From Leptodontidium sp. MPI-SDFR-AT-0119 (taxonomy: Eukaryota > Ascomycota > Leotiomycetes > Helotiales > Leptodontidiaceae): DNA of 64,000 nucleotides. Positions 1 to 19,456 of the stretch are shown one piece after another. The translations under genes were made by a program, and so were the position numbers. Every line of letters starts with the position of its first letter. Position 1 is the stretch's first letter. The notes under the pieces are model-generated. The model was not told the DNA's origin. It did not search any database and worked only from the letters and a program-made list of their open reading frames with translations. The stretch covers positions 4,464,001 through 4,528,000 of the forward strand of contig JAHLEZ010000002.1 of the NCBI GenBank assembly GCA_020726505.1, read 5' to 3'.

Positions 1-3000
1 GCGCTGCTTCATCTTGAGCAACGACTTCAGAAGCCTCTGGCTCACTGGGCTGAACAGTATCATCGTCGTCTTTCACTTCTTCTAGCTCTTTGTCGTCACC
101 CGAAGAAGCTGGCTCGATTTCTTCGGGAGCTGGCGGAGGGGAATCATCGATCTCTTTGGTCTCTTCACTCGACTCTGGTAACAGTTCTGAATATTGGGTG
201 GTCTCCACTGCTGTCTCGGGGGCAGGCTGGTCACTTTCGACCAATGGAGTCTCGGTCTCTATTGGGGCCGGTTCCTCTTCTTTTGATTCCTCAACCTGTA
301 TCAATGTTAGCGTTGAAGCCTTCGTCGCTAAATGTGACAGGGTGGGTGGATTGCAAATCTTGCAACAAAGCTCAAAATGCCATGACCCAATCGTAGCCAG
401 TATACCACTGCAACCTTATTATGGAGATGAATCCACTTGCACTTACCACTGGAGCTGGAGTTTCTTCGGCCAAAGATTCAGGTGTTGACTGAGCTTCAGG
501 TTCGGAGGTTTCATCCGCCTGTCAAAATTAGTTCTGGACTCGAGACAATGTCGTGTACTGGAGTCGCAACTTGTACACATTTACTGGAAGTGACTTACCG
601 TTGGGACTGGCTCTTCTTCTGATGGCTTGGGGGTTTCCTCGACCTAGTAGTGGTTAGATACGGTCCAGGGTCTCCATATGAATTTGGTAAGGAACAATTA
701 AGAGAGCCATGGCGCAGAATATTTAAATAGGGGGATGTAAATAGACAATGTGTACATACCACTTCATCAACCGGTTCAGCAGCGGCGGCAGCCACGGGAT
801 CTTCCTCGGCCTATATATATTTAATCAATCTCACTGCTCCAAGACATTTTTCGGGCACTTCGAGGCATATCACGTGTGATTTTTTCAACAAGCTTCAACC
901 GTCGACAGCGCAATGGAATTTAGGATCCGACCAAGCAGAGATCTACTTACTGCATCAGGAGCTTCGTCTGTTACTGCTTCCGCAGTCTCAGCAGCCTGTT
1001 TCCATGTGAGTAAAATAAAATCTCGTGGTCAAAAGAAACATCAAGCGGAACGAATCATTAATAAGACTCGGGTACGCGAAAGAGTAGCTTACAGATTCTG
1101 GGACGGTCTCCTCCTCTGGGGGACTAGGAGTTGGCTCACTTGGAGCTTCTAGAATTTCAACTACCTAGTATATGTCAGCCGCGAAATTCATTATCCCGAA
1201 ATTCCTAGTCCCGGCGACAGGAAATGGCTTATCGTATACGTACTGGCTCCGGTTCTGGGTCAGAAGCTACGGTCTCTTCGCAAGCTGGAGGTGAAGGATC
1301 TTCTTCCTTCTAAATACTGTTAGTTAGATGTATTCAACCATGCCTGAGGAGAAAATAGGCTGGACTTTGACTCACCACTGGTTCGGGGTCTGGCACAGAA
1401 GCCTCTTCAACAGCAGCGGGTGGCATATCCTCCTCCTATACAACATAAGTACTGAAATATTTATGGACATTGAAAAAGTGGGTTGAGTATTGCTTGACTT
1501 GAGCTGGAGGAACACAGAATGACCCCCTCGAGAAGAAGGGCTTGGGAGGAAGAGCAAAAGAAGGTGAACAGTGTCTTACAGCGGGGCTAGAATCAACCTC
1601 CTCTACTTGGGGTGATGCATCGTCAGTCTGAATGAAGGTGGTCAGTACCGTTTGGATGCAAGATAATTAAAAGCGGAAAATTGCTCCCAGGAGCCCACCA
1701 CAGGGTAGAACTCACAACTTGTTCTAAAGTAGGTTCATCAGCAGCTGGATCGGAAGCCGGTGTTTCTTCCTCCTGCATAAATGTTAGCGGAAAATTCTAG
1801 TCTAGCAATTTTTGACGAAATGTGGTTCGGAGAGAAGACTTACAGCAGGTGTCGGGCTGTCTTCTGCAGCCGGAGCATCCTCAGTCTTATCAAGTTAGTT
1901 AGAATAATGAATGGAAGTCCTTCAACAGGCTGTCAAATGCAAACGCGGTACAAGGAAGACTTACTGCTATTTCAGGGGCAGCCTGCTCTTCGACTGCTGG
2001 AGCTGGCGTCTCCTCCTGAAAACAGTTAGCATGATCGTTCAATGTCATGAAAATTGGCGACAACTTTGACCAAGAGACTGGACTTACCGCGGCTGGGGGG
2101 CTAGAATCTTCTTCAACCGGAGCTGGTGTATCTTCGACCTAGACAAAGTCAGCAAATGTATTTTTCTTTAAATCAGATTACTCGAGGGAAGAATCCACTT
2201 GGAACTCACAGCAGGTGCTGGGCTAGAATCTTCTTCAACCGGAGCTGGTATATCCTCAGCCTAGACAATATTAGTAACTGAATTCTGTTCATATAGAAGT
2301 CACAAGAAAAGAACTTAATACTTACAGCAGGTGCTGGGCTAGACTCTTCTTCGACTGGAGCCGGTGCATCCTCAGCCTAGACAATGTCAGTAATTGAATT
2401 TGTTTTAAAATGAGATTACTTGAGGAAAGAATCCACTTAGAACTCACGGCGGGTGCAGGGCTAGGCTCTTCCTCAACTGGCGCGGGAACATTCTCAGCCT
2501 GGAAAATGTCAGTAATTGAATTCTGTTCCTACGGAAGCCACAAGAACAGAATTTGATCCTCACATCTGGTGTAGGGCTAGAGTCTTCTTCAACTGGAGCC
2601 GGTGTATCCTCAGCCTAAACGAAATTAGCAATTGGATTCTGTTCATACGGAAGTCAAATGAAAAGAATTTGTTTCTCACAGCAGGTGCAGGGCTAGACTC
2701 TTCTTCAACTGGAGCCGGTATATCCTCAGCCGGTGTATCCTCAGCCGGTGTATCCTCAGCCGGTGTATCCTCAGCCTAAACGAAATTAGCAATTGGCTTC
2801 TCTTTCGGAAGAAACTCCCATGGGGTGATAGTGATCGAAACTCACAGTGGGTGCGGGGCTTGATTCTTCAACTGGAGCTGGTACATCCTCGACCTATAAA
2901 GATGTCAGAGATAGAACATTGGTGTAGCCGAGAAATCTTGACTAAGTCATTCGTCGAACTCACAACCGGTGCGAGCTCTTCAGTGAGAGCGGGTGTGTCC

Positions 3001-5394
3001 TCAACCTAATTCGATCAGTATTGAAATGCCATAATTGAATAGCATTGGGCCGAGACTCACGACGGCACTTTCTTCAGCCATTGGGACAGGAGTTTCCTCG
3101 ACCTGAGCGACTTAGCAGCGGCGCTTTATAGGAACCGAGATAGACAGGAAGCATCGGGATGAAGCTTACCACAGCTGCTGGGCTCTCCTCAACTACTGGG
3201 GCTGGAGTCTCCTCCTCAACTGCTGGGGCTGGAGTCTCCTCTTCAACTACTGGAGCTGGAGTCTCCTCCTCAACTACTGGAGCTGGAGTCTCCTCCTCAA
3301 CTGCTGGGGCTGGAGTGTCCTCAACTACTGGAGCTGGAGTGTCCTCTTCAACTACTGGAGCTGGAGTCTCCTCCTCAACTACTGGAGCTGGAGTCTCCTC
3401 CTCAACTACTGGAGCTGGAGTCTCCTCCTCAACTACTGGAGCTGGAGTCTCCTCCTCAACTGCTGGGGCTGGAGCCTCCTCCACCTGGATGAAGATTAGT
3501 ATTGAATTCTTGAAAGTGGAGGCAAACCTTCGTGAGGGAAACTTAGCAGGGGAAACTTACCGCTGACTCTGGGCTTTGCTCCTCGGCTGGAGGCGGGACG
3601 TCTTCGACCTACAAAAATTCGTCAGTAATCGAAATTCTGGGATAAATCACGAGTGGAGAGGGAAATTGGAGATTCGCAATCGGAGATAAACACTTACTAC
3701 AGGTTCTTGAACCGACTCCTCTATAGTTGGAGCCGGAACTTCCTCAACCTGTTGAATCAATGAGTCTATTGTCGACAATAGTGTCGTATGCAAGGCTTGG
3801 AACTTTGACTTACCACGGGCTCCGGTGTGGACTCTACGGGAGCTGGTGTTTCTTCCTTCATTGAATTAGACGTGGAACATATTAGGGCAACAGAAAACTT
3901 ACCACAGGCGCTGATGGCTCTTCGACAGTAGGTTCAGCAGGACTTGGTACTGACTTAACTTCGACAGGAGCCTCTGCCGATTCAACTATAGCCTCTGGCT
4001 CGGAAGCTGGTGCTACATCTGGGATTTCCACAACATCGGTTGAGGGAGCTGGGTCCGAAGCTGGGCTATCGTCGACGGGACTGGAATCACCCTCACCAGG
4101 GCTATCTGAAGGTGACTCGTCCGAAGGTGGAGGTGTCATTTCACTGGCTATGGCGGCAGTTGCTCCTATCGCAGCTACACCTGCCAAAGCTTTGCCAGCC
4201 TTACCCTTTCCTCCTTTCTTGTCTTTCCTACCCTTACCTCCCTTTTGCTGGTTCTCGACCTTTTCTGGCTTCAACTCCTTCTCAACCTCAGCTTCAGGTT
4301 CCCGGGACTTGTCTGCTTTCTTGCCCTTCTTTCCCTTCTTGCCAGCTTTTGGGAAGTCAGCTTCGAGCTTTTCGGTCTCAACTGGCTTCTCAGGTTCGGT
4401 CTCCTTATCGGCGGCTTGTTTCGCCTTTTTGTCTTGCTTCTTGTCTTTCTTAGATTCCTTTCCTTTCTTTCCAGGCTTCGGAGACTCTTCTTCGATTTTC
4501 TCGACTTCAGCGATGGGTTCCGGCTCAGGTTCTTTCTCGACTTGTTTGCCCTTTTTGCCCTGCTTCTTATCCTTTCTCACTTCCTTTTTCGAGTGTTTGT
4601 TGTTCTTCCATTTAGGTTCGAACTCGGGAGCAGGTGGAGCAGTGCCATCAGCGAAATGAACGCTGCTGGGACTGGGTGGTGAAGATCCATCGGTTGGTCC
4701 GGAAACATCTTTGGGTCTGATCTCTAAACTTTGTTCCTGAACATCACCATCCTGGGTTGGAGGATCAGGTGCAGCTGGCGGCACACTAGAAACGCCTTCT
4801 GGTCCATCATTAGCGATCTCCGATGTGACAGGTTGGGATATGCCACCATCGTCATCCTTTGATTCTCCCCCGCCATCCATCATTTTCTGCCCCTCGTGGT
4901 CGCCTTCAAGCTCGGCCATAGGTTCCAGGACAGGGTTATCGTCGTCGTGTTCGTCGTCTTTTATTGATTCATCGTCGGAGTCATCTGAGCCACCAAATTA
5001 GCTTTTTCAAATCTTGATGTGCAAATCCGTTTGAGGACTTTAATCCTTGTTCAATGCCTCACTGCATGTGAATATAAATATTTCCCGAGCATGATCACCT
5101 GGATCGTAATCAGGAGGGAAAATTGACGGATACCTTACCTTCCACTTGATATTCAAAAGCAGTACCCTTCTTGCACTTCGCTAGCAGTGCAAGATCTTTT
5201 TCCGTACCCGTAAAAGTCATGGGTTTGCCGTATTTGGTTTGTTGGACCTCGAATCTTTGAGGGGGTTGGAATTCGTACTTCTGGGTTTGAACCTCAAATG
5301 TTTGAGTCTGTATTTCGTATTGTTCCGTCTGAATAGAGGACGGGTCATGAACTTGTGTCCTGTAGGGACATACTGAAACGGAGGGTTCTTCCAT
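1..5394 (-). CDS. Acidic PAPVEE-repeat protein encoded by an array of phase-0 mini-exons (3' end off window)
   Basis: Not a family I recognise. Exon 1 is 5394-5139 and exon 2 is 4984-3903 (joined in phase 1, giving about 446 codons). Exon 1 is Gln/Tyr/Thr-rich with several F/Y-E-V-Q-T-like units. Exon 2 is highly charged, with KKGKK-type lysine runs and a short Ala-rich stretch near its end. It is followed by 24 exons, nearly all 42-96 nt, each an exact multiple of three: 3855-3814, 3748-3698, 3608-3561, 3484-3170, 3102-3061, 3005-2964, 2893-2846, 2775-2680, 2614-2564, 2498-2448, 2376-2326, 2260-2210, 2138-2088, 2015-1965, 1885-1844, 1772-1716, 1627-1580, 1435-1376, 1309-1244, 1164-1093, 995-951, 810-760, 643-599, 518-447. 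A last exon starts at 295 and is cut by the window edge. All introns are GT-AG, 47-151 nt. Each mini-exon encodes variants of V/A-E-E/D-x-P-A-P-V-E-E. About 1060 residues are visible; they are likely disordered. No signal peptide or membrane segment is seen. Function unknown. Confidence 0.8.
2139..2775 (-). repeat. Tandemly duplicated exon-intron cassettes
   Basis: Five consecutive mini-exons (2775-2680, 2614-2564, 2498-2448, 2376-2326, 2260-2210) and the introns between and after them are recognisably copies of each other. The exons share the A-E-D-x-P-A-P-V-E-E-x-S-S-P-A-P-A plan. The introns fall into two sequence types. One type (2679-2615, 2563-2499, 2325-2261, all 65 nt) shares a block around ttctgttcatacggaagtc on the plus strand. 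The other (2447-2377, 2209-2139, both 71 nt) shares a block around gaggaaagaatccactt. The first exon also holds three extra 15-bp copies encoding AEDTP. Confidence 0.85.
3190..3484 (-). repeat. 27-bp coding minisatellite (EEETPAPVV units)
   Basis: About ten to eleven head-to-tail copies of a 24-27 bp unit inside the only long exon of the mini-exon array (3484-3170). Units read EEETPAPVV, EEETPAPAV, EEDTPAPVV or EDTPAPAV. Copies are nearly identical at DNA level, so the tract is probably recent and length-variable. The reading frame is preserved by every unit. Confidence 0.9.
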
Positions 5395-15172: not shown

Positions 15173-18100
15173 CTATGGTCTTGCTTCTTCCGTCTGTAAG
15201 GGAGGAGGCGAAGGCCCAGTTGCCGGCTCACTCTTTACGTCCACCAAATCATTGGCAACCTCCTTTTTCGGACTCTCCAGCTGGCCCATCTCGCTTGTGG
15301 GCAACGGCGTGCTGGCTCCATTCGAGGGGTTTGCAGAAGGCGCTGGCGAGTTCAGAGGAGTCTGCTGCCGCATTGGTGCATTGCTACTATTCGAATTGGA
15401 TCTTCCCATGTTGTTCATTGGCGGTCTGGGGATCGATACACCACTTGGACGATTCTGATTAAACGTGGGCCGCATGATCGTAGGGTTCGGCTTTTCTGGT
15501 CCAGTGGATTTGGCAGGCGGTTGTGGTTGAGATGCGCCTGCTTGTGTTCCACTCTGATTCGCCTGTTGGTATGATTGGGGTTGCGGTTGAGGTGGAGGCG
15601 GAGACGATATTTGGTCGCTGTGCGAACTAGTGGCACCAGCCTGCGGGAGGAGACCAATCTTTTTGAGCATGTTTTGCAGAACTTCTACAATTGGAGCCTC
15701 ATCTGGATGGCCAGGGGCATCGTCGCTACTCTGTCCAAGTACTTTGCGCACAGCACCATCTAGTATCTCGATGCCATTAGGCTTTGAAGCCATTTGAATT
15801 GCTAGAGCCTTTCTGAACGACTCAACAGCAGTCATAAGCTGCTGATTGACCGGAGCAGAGGCTGTGCTCATACCCATTTGCTGTACGGTCTGGGGCTGGC
15901 TTTGAGGAGGTGCTGGCTGTGGGGGTTGAGCCTGGTATGGGCGAGAGCTTGGTTGCGTTTGCCTTTGCTGCATTTGCGGTTGTTGTGAAGGAAACGATTG
16001 AGCGAAGTGTTGTGATTGGCTATACGGAGGGTATTGGGGTTGTCGTGCATACTGATATCCTGCTCGAGGTGCGGGTGCATCAGGTAACCCTGAATCTTGA
16101 GAGTGTCGGTTCGTTGCAATTCCTGGTTGACTACTCGATGGTCCTATTTGCCCAGTCGAGGTTCTTGGCTGACTTTGCAGAGCAGATTGAGTTGACGCGG
16201 GTCCTGACTGATTTATTTGGGCACCTGACTGGGACGCTGGAGCACCTGACTGGCTTGTCGAAGGACCAGTTTGTCCCGTTGAAGAAGCAGGCTGACTGGT
16301 TGGAGGACCTGATTGACTTGCCGGAGCACCTGATTGAATTGTCGAAGGACCGGGTTGACTTGTTGGAGAACCATGCTGAGCAGTCGAAAGACCAGGTTGA
16401 CTTGCAGGTGGACCATTTGAAGCAGCGGGCTTAGGGCCGTAAGGAGAGCTGTAAGAAGTAGAGGCCGGAGGAGCCAGTGCAGGTGGAATAGTTAAAGGGG
16501 GTTGACTGTTCATAGGAGGCTGGGATCCTGGCTGATAGAGCCCGTTCATGTGTGGTTGATGCCCCATATGCCCCATGTATGGTTGCGGCTGACCAGGACG
16601 GTAATTGGGAGGAAGTTGATGGTGCATCTGATAACCCATGGGCGGGACCATCATTCCTTGAGGAGGATAGCCTGGCATTTGATACCCAGGAGCATAGCCT
16701 GGATATATTGGCTGCATGTGTCCAGGTTGGTACGGAGGTGGAGGAGAGGCTTTCTTCTTTTTCTCTTTCTCGAAGGTGGCACCCTCTTTTATGGCCCATT
16801 TCCATCCTTTACCATCACGCTCCACCTTCTCAAAACCTTCATTTTGTCCCAAGTTATGGCGAACACTGCTCTGCCACCCAACTGTAGAAACCCTAACTAC
16901 GAAATACGGATATTTTCGCTGGATGGCCCTGTAAATTTGTGGCAATGACATTTGCTTATGCTTTGATTCTGAAAGTGCCTCATAGATGAGCTGGACGTAG
17001 TTGCAGGATGGTTTGGTGAGTTGCTCTGGAGTGAGATCCTCTTCATTGTATACTGGAGACGGCGATCGGGGCGACCTAGCGGGTTTCTGCTGCTCCTTCG
17101 GATCCCTGTTTTCACCATCACCAGCCTCGCCATCTGCTTTGGATTCCCCGTCTTTCGGTTCCTTCGGCTTCCTCTTTGTGTACTTGCGTTTCTCCCTTGG
17201 CTCTGGAGGCGTGTCCGGTCTAGGATGCTTTCGCGGACGGCCGACCTTTCTCTTCTCACCACCTTCAGGGGCAGTCTTGTTGCCAGTGTCCGCACTTGCT
17301 TGGCTGCCTGCCTCGGGTTTAGTCGCTTTCTTCGCCGTTCTGCCCTCTTTGCCCTCTTTGCCTCCTTTGCCCCCCTTGGTTTCTTTGGTTTCTTTTGGCT
17401 CTTTGGGCTCTTTGGGGACTTTCTCTTCCTTCCTGGTGGTCTTTTTAGACTCCTTTTCAAAAGCTTCTTTAGCAAGTCGCGCTGCTTTCTCTTCTCTCTG
17501 TTGCCGCTTGGATATTCCATCCTTTGGTGGGCGACCAACTCCGCGCTTCTTGGGTTCGGGGGTTATAGGTTCAGGTTCTGGCCTCAAATGCTCAAAATCA
17601 TCTTCTACTCTGTCTTCATGTTGGTCATCCTCGTTCTCTTCCTCTTCCTCTTCCACTGCCTCATCTCCATCTTCATCCGACCCTTGATCGTCGCTGTAAA
17701 GTTGAGATTGGCCGGGATCAATGACTCCGTCATCTTCCTCGTCGCTTGCCTCGTCATCCCGGTCACGGTCTTCGTCATGGTCCATGATAGGCTCATCGCC
17801 ATAGTCATCAGAGTCGCTGTCGTCGTCCAAGCCCAGAGCCTGCCGCCGCTCATTCTGGAAATCTAGACTCATCTCCTTACCAGCCATCACGTACTTCAGC
17901 CGGTCGTCACCATCAACGTCGAATTGGAGACCCGCTGCAGTGCTATCATCCTCTTCATCAGATTCCTCATCCTCATCGGCTCCTGTTTTACCAATTGGAA
18001 TGTGCTCTGGGAGTCTGAACAACAGTTCTACCGCGCCAATTTGTAAGTGACAGCCATTCGTGAGTTCGAAAATTTGGCCTTGGCTTTTGAGTTCGTCTTC

Positions 18101-19456
18101 CACAAAACAACCGTTCCTTCCCTTGACTTGGCCCTCCCATAGATTTTTTTCGAAATTGAATGCGATCAGTAAATGCTCTCTTGAAATGGCTTTCCAATCC
18201 GATGTGCTGGCAGGGTAAGGAGGGTGGATGAATAATGTGACCATCTTATGAGGGGACGGCTGGTGCTTCTCGACATCAACTCTGGCAGGGCGTTCAGAGT
18301 CCGAGTACTGATGCTGTGGAGTATCCATAGGTGGAGCCATAGAGGGTCGTCTGGATCGATGGTGTGAGGATGAGCCAGAAGACCTTGACTTCTTGAGGCG
18401 CTTGCTTGGCCTGCTGGAACCACGATCTTTCCTTCTTCGCTTTCGGTCGTGACCTTCCTCGTACTCATCCTCATCGAATTCTCTGACGAAACCACCTCTG
18501 TCACTGACGATTGACTTTGTAGCCTTGGTAGTCGAAATTCGTAAAGCCCCCGGACCATTCCTCATCTGAGCCTTTTGAAGCCGCAAGTCTCTGCCAATCA
18601 TGAGGGAGTATGAATTCAAGTAGAAGTGTCCATCGTCGAATTCGATCTTTGCGTAGCCTTGAACTTTATGGTCTACTTCCGCGACAGCTTGTTGGCCATA
18701 TTCGGAGTTGTAATACGCAGCAGCGTCTTGAAGGCTATTTTCGAACATCGTAGGGGCCGGCATAGGGACCATTGGGTCTACGCCGGTGAGCCAGTCTTCA
18801 TGGATGGGGTTCTGTCCGTCGTGAGGGATGCTAGCATGTTGAGTAGACTGCTGTAACTCCTGGCCTTGAGGAAATCCTAGGTCCGGCATGAGTTCTGGGA
18901 TGAACGCCCGGGCGTGCACCATCTGCGCCAGGATCTCTTCATTCGTGGTCAAGGCATCAATCTCAGCAGCGATACGAGATGTGTCTGGCTCTGCGACTGC
19001 TGGTGCTGTAAGAGGCTGCATTTGCGCTCCCCGCTCTTCGTTCCCCTCTGCCGTTTCTTCCCCAGCATTCGCGACCGCAACCTGCCCTTCCAGCCTTCCA
19101 CTCTGCAAGTCTTCCATGGGCGGTACGTTTTCTCCTTCAAGAGAGACTTGTTGTTGTGAATCGTTGGTTGCATTATCGGTTGTGGTGAGAGCGGCAGCTT
19201 CGCTGTTGTTGTTGTCCAGCGGATTGTCCAGCGTGTTGGTGAGAATTGCTGTAGTTGCGACCGGTTCGGCTTCTGGTTCTACCTCTCCTTCGGGGGTGGC
19301 GTTTGAAGTCATCGCTGTCAGTTTACTCCGTTGAGAAGGTGACAACTCGTTCATAGCCATGTACAGTTCGATTGGGTTGGGTTGACCAAGCGGAAAGGGT
19401 TCTGCGCCGGCCAGCTCATCAGAGATCATGAATCGGTAGACCTCGCTCTTGTCCAA
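15173..19456 (-). CDS. fhl1: FHA plus forkhead transcriptional regulator of Fhl1 type
   Basis: Intronless 1427-residue protein. Order: a Gln/Asp-rich N-terminus; an FHA domain (about 268-485) with GRD in its first half, SREHL and KGRNGCFVE in its second; an acidic stretch (495-625) of Asp/Glu runs; two AT-hook-like motifs (GRPPK near 641, GRPRK near 739) in a Lys-rich linker; a forkhead winged helix (about 815-890) including SLPQIYRAI and WQSSVRHNL; and a long Pro/Gln/Ser-rich C-terminus with SQPGPST-like repeats. FHA plus forkhead in one chain is the Fhl1 arrangement. In yeast this factor sits at ribosomal-protein promoters with Ifh1/Crf1 under TOR control. A basic Ser/Arg insertion (about 325-400) splits the FHA fold. 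A TCACGTGA palindrome lies about 33 bp upstream of the ATG. Confidence 0.92.
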   Translation of the reverse strand: MDKSEVYRFMISDELAGAEPFPLGQPNPIELYMAMNELSPSQRSKLTAMTSNATPEGEVEPEAEPVATTAILTNTLDNPLDNNNSEAAALTTTDNATNDSQQQVSLEGENVPPMEDLQSGRLEGQVAVANAGEETAEGNEERGAQMQPLTAPAVAEPDTSRIAAEIDALTTNEEILAQMVHARAFIPELMPDLGFPQGQELQQSTQHASIPHDGQNPIHEDWLTGVDPMVPMPAPTMFENSLQDAAAYYNSEYGQQAVAEVDHKVQGYAKIEFDDGHFYLNSYSLMIGRDLRLQKAQMRNGPGALRISTTKATKSIVSDRGGFVREFDEDEYEEGHDRKRRRKDRGSSRPSKRLKKSRSSGSSSHHRSRRPSMAPPMDTPQHQYSDSERPARVDVEKHQPSPHKMVTLFIHPPYPASTSDWKAISREHLLIAFNFEKNLWEGQVKGRNGCFVEDELKSQGQIFELTNGCHLQIGAVELLFRLPEHIPIGKTGADEDEESDEEDDSTAAGLQFDVDGDDRLKYVMAGKEMSLDFQNERRQALGLDDDSDSDDYGDEPIMDHDEDRDRDDEASDEEDDGVIDPGQSQLYSDDQGSDEDGDEAVEEEEEENEDDQHEDRVEDDFEHLRPEPEPITPEPKKRGVGRPPKDGISKRQQREEKAARLAKEAFEKESKKTTRKEEKVPKEPKEPKETKETKGGKGGKEGKEGRTAKKATKPEAGSQASADTGNKTAPEGGEKRKVGRPRKHPRPDTPPEPREKRKYTKRKPKEPKDGESKADGEAGDGENRDPKEQQKPARSPRSPSPVYNEEDLTPEQLTKPSCNYVQLIYEALSESKHKQMSLPQIYRAIQRKYPYFVVRVSTVGWQSSVRHNLGQNEGFEKVERDGKGWKWAIKEGATFEKEKKKKASPPPPYQPGHMQPIYPGYAPGYQMPGYPPQGMMVPPMGYQMHHQLPPNYRPGQPQPYMGHMGHQPHMNGLYQPGSQPPMNSQPPLTIPPALAPPASTSYSSPYGPKPAASNGPPASQPGLSTAQHGSPTSQPGPSTIQSGAPASQSGPPTSQPASSTGQTGPSTSQSGAPASQSGAQINQSGPASTQSALQSQPRTSTGQIGPSSSQPGIATNRHSQDSGLPDAPAPRAGYQYARQPQYPPYSQSQHFAQSFPSQQPQMQQRQTQPSSRPYQAQPPQPAPPQSQPQTVQQMGMSTASAPVNQQLMTAVESFRKALAIQMASKPNGIEILDGAVRKVLGQSSDDAPGHPDEAPIVEVLQNMLKKIGLLPQAGATSSHSDQISSPPPPQPQPQSYQQANQSGTQAGASQPQPPAKSTGPEKPNPTIMRPTFNQNRPSGVSIPRPPMNNMGRSNSNSSNAPMRQQTPLNSPAPSANPSNGASTPLPTSEMGQLESPKKEVANDLVDVKSEPATGPSPPPLQTEEARP

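Follow-up and report, generated by a model that had tools for sequence, protein, structure and literature searches.

Gene model and exon array

The window analyzed here is the whole 64,000-nt stretch (contig positions 4464001-4528000) of a 77-Mb, 69-contig genome. The gene described below lies on its minus strand and runs over the lower edge of the window, where we read the nearer 10 kb of a 20-kb flank. Dynamic programming between the start codon at 5394 and the stop codon at L002:5538, with partial codons carried across junctions and introns permitted in any phase, gave a splice model of about 39 exons, in which the stop lies ~4.46 kb past the window edge and the product is ~2,287 aa long. 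Two draft pieces of exon 1 are merged in this count: a draft in-frame intron at 5373-5281 was dropped because the related proteins P0026 (Rhynchosporium agropyri) and P0029, compared by eye, read straight through it. No Rfam family passed its gathering threshold in the window (0 matches), and Pfam searches with the head plus E3 region and with the tail gave a single result, DUF2613 with the former query, at E 0.027 and under the curated score. Elsewhere on the same strand, the window holds a 1,427-aa uninterrupted ORF at 15173-19456 (-).

Table 1 Features of the predicted gene, in window coordinates; negative positions lie beyond the window edge.
Feature	Position	Strand	Evidence
Exon 1, 256 nt: ATG and conserved 85-aa head MEEPSVSVCPYRTQVHDP..., ends in phase 1	5139..5394	-	Splice model; head conserved in P0026, P0029 and P0030
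First intron (I2 in the splice model), phase 1, GTAAGG...CTCAG	4985..5138	-	Insertion at the same place in the P0029 and P0030 ORFs, by eye
Large exon, 1,082 nt: Lys-rich stretch, first hydrophobic segment, start of the acidic linker	3903..4984	-	Splice model
First hydrophobic segment ALAGVAAIGATAAIASEMT, residues 351-369	4134..4190	-	Mean hydropathy 1.41 over 19 residues
E4-E27, 24 frame-neutral exons with phase-0 introns	447..3855	-	Splice model
E7, 315 nt: ~11 copies of a 27-nt (9-aa, VEEETPAPV) repeat, intron-free	3170..3484	-	TRF, 11.1 copies, 91% matches
E11, 96 nt, with internal 15-nt repeats (AEDTP)	2680..2775	-	TRF, splice model
Recently duplicated cassettes, I11-E12 to I15-E16	2088..2679	-	TRF, intron alignment, block identity
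E28, 348 nt, the part inside the window (the exon ends at -52)	1..295	-	Splice model
E29-E39, 11 further symmetric exons, reaching -3071	beyond window edge	-	Splice model
Last exon, to the stop at -4461 (L002:5538)	beyond window edge	-	Splice model

The original prediction placed at least 24 consecutive exons here, of 42-96 nt with one of 315 nt, all multiples of three, separated by GT-AG introns and joined in phase 0, and had the array continuing past the window edge. The phase-free model recovers the same 24 base for base, from 3855-3814 down to 518-447, together with their sizes, intron borders and junction phases. Past the edge it adds 12 exons, the first of which straddles the boundary, with lengths of 348, 96, 117, 114, 1053, 45, 279, 99, 78, 75, 93 and 240 nt. 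In the complete model, all 36 consecutive internal exons (E4-E39) are multiples of three and the introns that bound them (I3-I39) are in phase 0 in 37 of 37 cases; array exons range from 42 to 1,053 nt and introns from 47 to 151 nt. Consecutive internal exons that are symmetric and share one phase are a feature of tandem exon-duplication arrays, and this is the arrangement present here. The gene structure is well supported by the sequence and is striking for an ascomycete.

As a control on the splice model, we simulated 15 genes whose introns had been shifted by -1, 0 or +1 base, giving 555 planted junctions (204 in phase 0, 180 in phase 1 and 171 in phase 2). The model assigned every one of these its true phase and put 536 at the exact base; the remaining 19, all of phase 1, were misplaced but kept the right phase. 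Since planted phases 1 and 2 were recovered, the model does not force phase 0. A naive (1/3)^n estimate of chance occurrence, which treats the exons as independent, was rejected: duplication of an exon with its intron copies the phase as well, so the copies are not independent and such an estimate is inappropriate.

The branch site that the model selected reads CTRAY in 29 of the 37 introns, and the donor is GTAAGT or GTGAGT in 20 of 37; both counts are partly built in because the model scores these signals. The donors of I35 (GTATAG) and I39 (GTATTT) are poor. Intron length is a multiple of three in 4 of 37 cases (binomial p 0.0016 against one third; p 0.0039 with I12, I14 and I15 dropped). 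Retention would lead to a premature stop for 36 of the 37 introns in the model, the exception being I16; 18 of 37 contain no in-frame stop of their own, and most of these would stop later through the frame shift. The paucity of lengths divisible by three and the stops on retention are as expected of introns that are normally removed. Skipping was predicted to leave the frame intact for any subset of exons, and as arithmetic on the model this holds for any of E4-E39; actual skipping is unsupported by anything in the sequence analysis.

Duplication of exon-intron cassettes

The exon had been proposed as the repeat unit of the array. What is repeated is a duplicated block of exon plus intron, with the introns in register with the protein repeat, and this can be seen directly for about six units (E11-E16). 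TRF reports repeat units of 116-122 and 238 bp that span exon and intron together, and a tandem 238-bp duplication aligns E12-I12-E13-I13 with E14-I14-E15-I15 at 194 of 238 identical ungapped positions. The intron cores pair as a duplicated dimer, with 65 nt in I11, I12 and I14 and 71 nt in I13 and I15. Given this identity and the alternation of 65- and 71-nt introns, the two-cassette block has itself been duplicated. Intron pairs in the E11-E16 region align with z of 4.3-13.5. Differences among E12-E16 fall at codon positions 1, 2 and 3 in the numbers 25, 14 and 69 (10 non-independent pairs, 170 sites per position), the pattern expected of coding exons under constraint. Judged from these alignments, neighbouring exon-intron units are recognizable as copies of one another within E11-E16 only.

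Of the 666 intron pairs in the whole array, only 7 exceed z = 4 in alignment, and one of these, I13-I20, is a weak gapped match; with so few pairs aligning, descent of all 37 introns from a single ancestor lacks support. For the remaining exons, whose introns no longer align, the case for a repeat unit is made by register, phase and motif. Of the 23 intron sites scored across the 24 exons, 19 are followed by xE[EDN] or E[EDN], a motif chosen after the exons had been seen. The expectation for random sites is 6.1 (25 draws) or, with E7 left out, 5.2 (23 draws), and in neither null did any of 20,000 sets reach 19. A proline in the three residues ahead of the intron was not significantly enriched (17 of 23 against 13.2 expected, with 1,705 of 20,000 random sets as high), and donor classes showed no significant clustering (24 of 36 neighbouring donors alike where 20.6 are expected, with 2,499 of 20,000 shuffles as high). 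With the other introns no longer aligning and donor types unclustered, the older duplications outside E11-E16 are an inference. Tandem duplication of exon-intron cassettes thus accounts for at least part of the growth of the array.

E7 is a second expansion, free of introns, of ~11 near-identical 9-aa units. Its units are near-identical and many of the intron-separated exons have diverged; introns may slow the homogenisation of repeats, or E7 may simply be recent. Searches of the 77-Mb genome, in which best candidates were kept and very common words skipped, matched only this locus, both with window 1-4000 as one query and with the 238-bp probe carrying I12-I13.

The predicted protein and its relatives

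From N to C terminus, the predicted protein consists of a conserved head, a hydrophobic segment, an acidic P/E/V/A linker, a second hydrophobic segment and a conserved basic tail. The linker (1,395 aa) contains 34.8% D+E, 16.6% P, 12.3% A, 11.1% V and 2.8% K+R, and has a net charge of -446 and 0.14% aromatic residues. The hydrophobic segments that flank it, of 19 residues each, occupy residues 351-369 and 1878-1896. The second is present in all six tail-bearing relatives scanned (P0026, P0027, P0028, P0017, P0012 and P0009) and the first in two of three head-bearing relatives (P0026 and P0029, with none comparable in P0030). AlphaFold2 modeled the tail mostly at low confidence (mean pLDDT 52.7), with helices at 172-198, 312-381 (70 residues), 417-426 and 433-445; this low-confidence model places no helix at the hydrophobic segment. 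The protein is probably largely disordered, as the composition of the linker suggests for that part, and its plan is consistent with a flexible spacer, or tether, linking two sites of attachment.

The tail is 99% identical, over 87% of its length, to P0001 (390 aa) of the nearest named relative, Leptodontidium sp. 2 PMI_412, which makes the present fungus a close relative of that one. The P0001 record begins at an internal Met of what is here the last exon and covers only part of that exon. The array behind P0001 seems to have escaped automated annotation and, given this partial record, such arrays may be mis-annotated elsewhere. P0026 (RAG0_09220) is a single 2,331-aa model that joins head and tail and thereby gives independent support, at the level of protein letters, for the single-gene span. 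Identity to P0026 is 223/365 within the first 370 residues (61%), 469/1226 in the linker (38%, due in part to low complexity) and 349/444 in the tail (79%). Because the ends are conserved among relatives and the linker changes fast, gain and loss of cassettes could be followed directly among them.

Several records also bear on intron position. Compared by eye as protein letters, the P0029 ORF ends ...APV/VSF..., matching the present gene read through I3, and P0004 has EEVKD/VCP where the present gene has EEVKE/VFP at I39; these ORFs seem to continue into I3 and I39, the first and last introns of phase 0, at equivalent positions. The contig size of 14,245 bases given for each of P0030 and P0004 suggests that both lie on one contig, and inspection by eye suggests that P0017 and P0021 have a different phase for the intron before the last exon. 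P0028, an uninterrupted ORF of 1,500 aa, shares the tail and has a linker of 1,111 residues; since this linker is uninterrupted, the mini-exon layout is not general to the family, unless the P0028 record is a transcript. P0002 (487 aa) is uninterrupted where I38 and I39 would fall, and its record may be RNA or DNA.

The tail protein P0001 was also sought in bacterial and archaeal contigs (387 pattern matches, none confirmed) and in viral contigs (97, none). Within its own genome the tail matched only itself, and the 85-aa head matched itself and, weakly (E 0.024, 37%), L012:3075-4097 (-) on the same contig. The latter is a different-looking 340-aa ORF.

Explanations for the array and comparison with known systems

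With a probability of roughly 0.7, we interpret the locus as one real gene of ~39 exons whose linker grew by cassette duplication, whose introns are normally removed and whose product is a spacer. A short exon with its phase-0 intron would have been tandemly duplicated again and again through unequal exchange, lengthening the linker, and every exon would thereby be frame-neutral by descent. All introns would normally be spliced out, the conserved ends would bind two sites, and the linker would be a flexible spacer, as the leashin PELS linker or titin PEVK is. Gain or loss of cassettes would then alter its length at no cost in frame. Most likely the gene is spliced constitutively and its product is a spacer resembling titin PEVK or leashin.

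Titin PEVK exons are differentially spliced, and on that model the array could be a splicing-controlled length dial, in which cassette exons are skipped in varying numbers to yield tethers of different length. With 36 frame-neutral exons and phase-0 junctions, skipping would create no new codon, and titin PEVK is likewise reported to consist of many small exons (human exons 112-224; PMC6469411). Frame-neutrality, however, follows from duplication alone, and in the survey of 23 fungi in PMC3925392, whose authors propose intron definition, skipped exons are given as 3% of alternative-splicing events against 61% for intron retention; we rank constitutive splicing first on these figures and regard a length dial as quite unlikely. 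A bolder version, an independently evolved fungal titin-like array in which an elastic intracellular tether is made longer or shorter by the count of included cassettes, retention being punished by premature stops and skipping tolerated by design, seems to us very unlikely. The array nonetheless offers a test of whether a fungus splicing by intron definition can skip exons at all. Introns might instead have been inserted many times in parallel into an already repetitive coding region, by introner-like elements or similar. Such a history would account for the dissimilarity of most introns (7/666 pairs above z 4) and for the ~11 units of E7 without introns, and the uninterrupted linker of P0028, if not taken from a transcript, may mean that some other lineage has an intron-free linker. 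Insertion sites are typically AG/GT, however, and AG precedes the donor in only 5 of 37 exons here; in addition, I11-I15 were clearly copied along with their exons, and among the best candidates neither window 1-4000 nor the two-intron probe was matched elsewhere in the genome. We consider parallel insertion unlikely.

Duplication of cassettes in a spacer gene also has to be weighed against two other identities for the locus. The gene could be this fungus's leashin, a Woronin-body or septal-pore tether, or part of it, since in both a fast-evolving, acidic, P/E-rich repetitive linker joins conserved ends; the authors of the leashin study liken the PELS linker to titin PEVK and describe 6 of 7 newly found lah introns as in-frame (PMC2690989). 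The same paper, on the other hand, gives Pezizomycotina leashins a predicted size of ~600-800 kDa, which the proteins of 2,287 aa here and 2,331 aa in Rhynchosporium agropyri do not approach. Our protein searches scored ~8,000 candidates each, with length limits that would hide proteins above about 4,000 aa. Among the 30 matched proteins, three have a named organism (Leptodontidium, Rhynchosporium and Calycina, all of them Helotiales). We find a leashin identity highly doubtful. The possibility that the intron calls are wrong and the sequence is a degenerate or non-coding repeat could draw on the 18 of 37 introns without an in-frame stop inside. This reading is extremely improbable in view of the codon-position bias of the differences, the premature stops on retention of 36 of 37 introns, the conservation of both ends in relatives and the whole-length predicted protein in Rhynchosporium agropyri.

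Among known systems, fibrillar collagen genes have arrays of 54-nt exons, with a rigid 9-nt arithmetic tied to Gly-X-Y. The present array is similar in using tandem symmetric exons for a protein repeat; unlike in collagen, its repeat is loose and its exons span 42-1,053 nt. Fungal introner-like elements also entail the gain of many introns in fungal genes (PMC4457414), but the near-identical introns in unrelated genes that characterize them were not seen here, window 1-4000 and the I12-I13 probe having matched, among the best candidates kept, their own locus only. The nearest described fungal analogue is leashin (LAH), the Woronin-body tether of Pezizomycotina, which is reported to combine conserved ends with a poorly conserved, highly acidic, repeat-rich linker and in-frame introns (PMC2690989). 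Its highly acidic, P/E-rich linker has a counterpart in the 34.8% D+E and 16.6% P found here; the likeness is one of overall plan. Septal disordered proteins, as described in PMC10023807, are biased to arginine and histidine, unlike the acidic linker of this gene.

The PEVK region of titin, in vertebrate muscle, resembles the array in that many short consecutive exons, subject to duplication and loss, encode a P/E/V/K(A)-rich spring, and there too automated annotation is reported to find fewer exons than a dedicated search (PMC6469411). The fungal case differs in its 2.8% K+R against 34.8% D+E, in its ascomycete host, and in its introns of 47-151 nt and 36 array exons, for which regulated skipping is unsupported; we make no claim of homology. 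Literature searches aimed at a mini-exon array in a fungus brought up no such report, and the locus would be a new fungal form of a gene architecture that is already known. With its short introns, the locus is a compact ascomycete case of exon-duplication arithmetic, in which symmetric exons are copied together with their introns, best known from animals. The comparison suggests that animal muscle and fungal large proteins arrived at a similar gene architecture for acidic, spring-like linkers.
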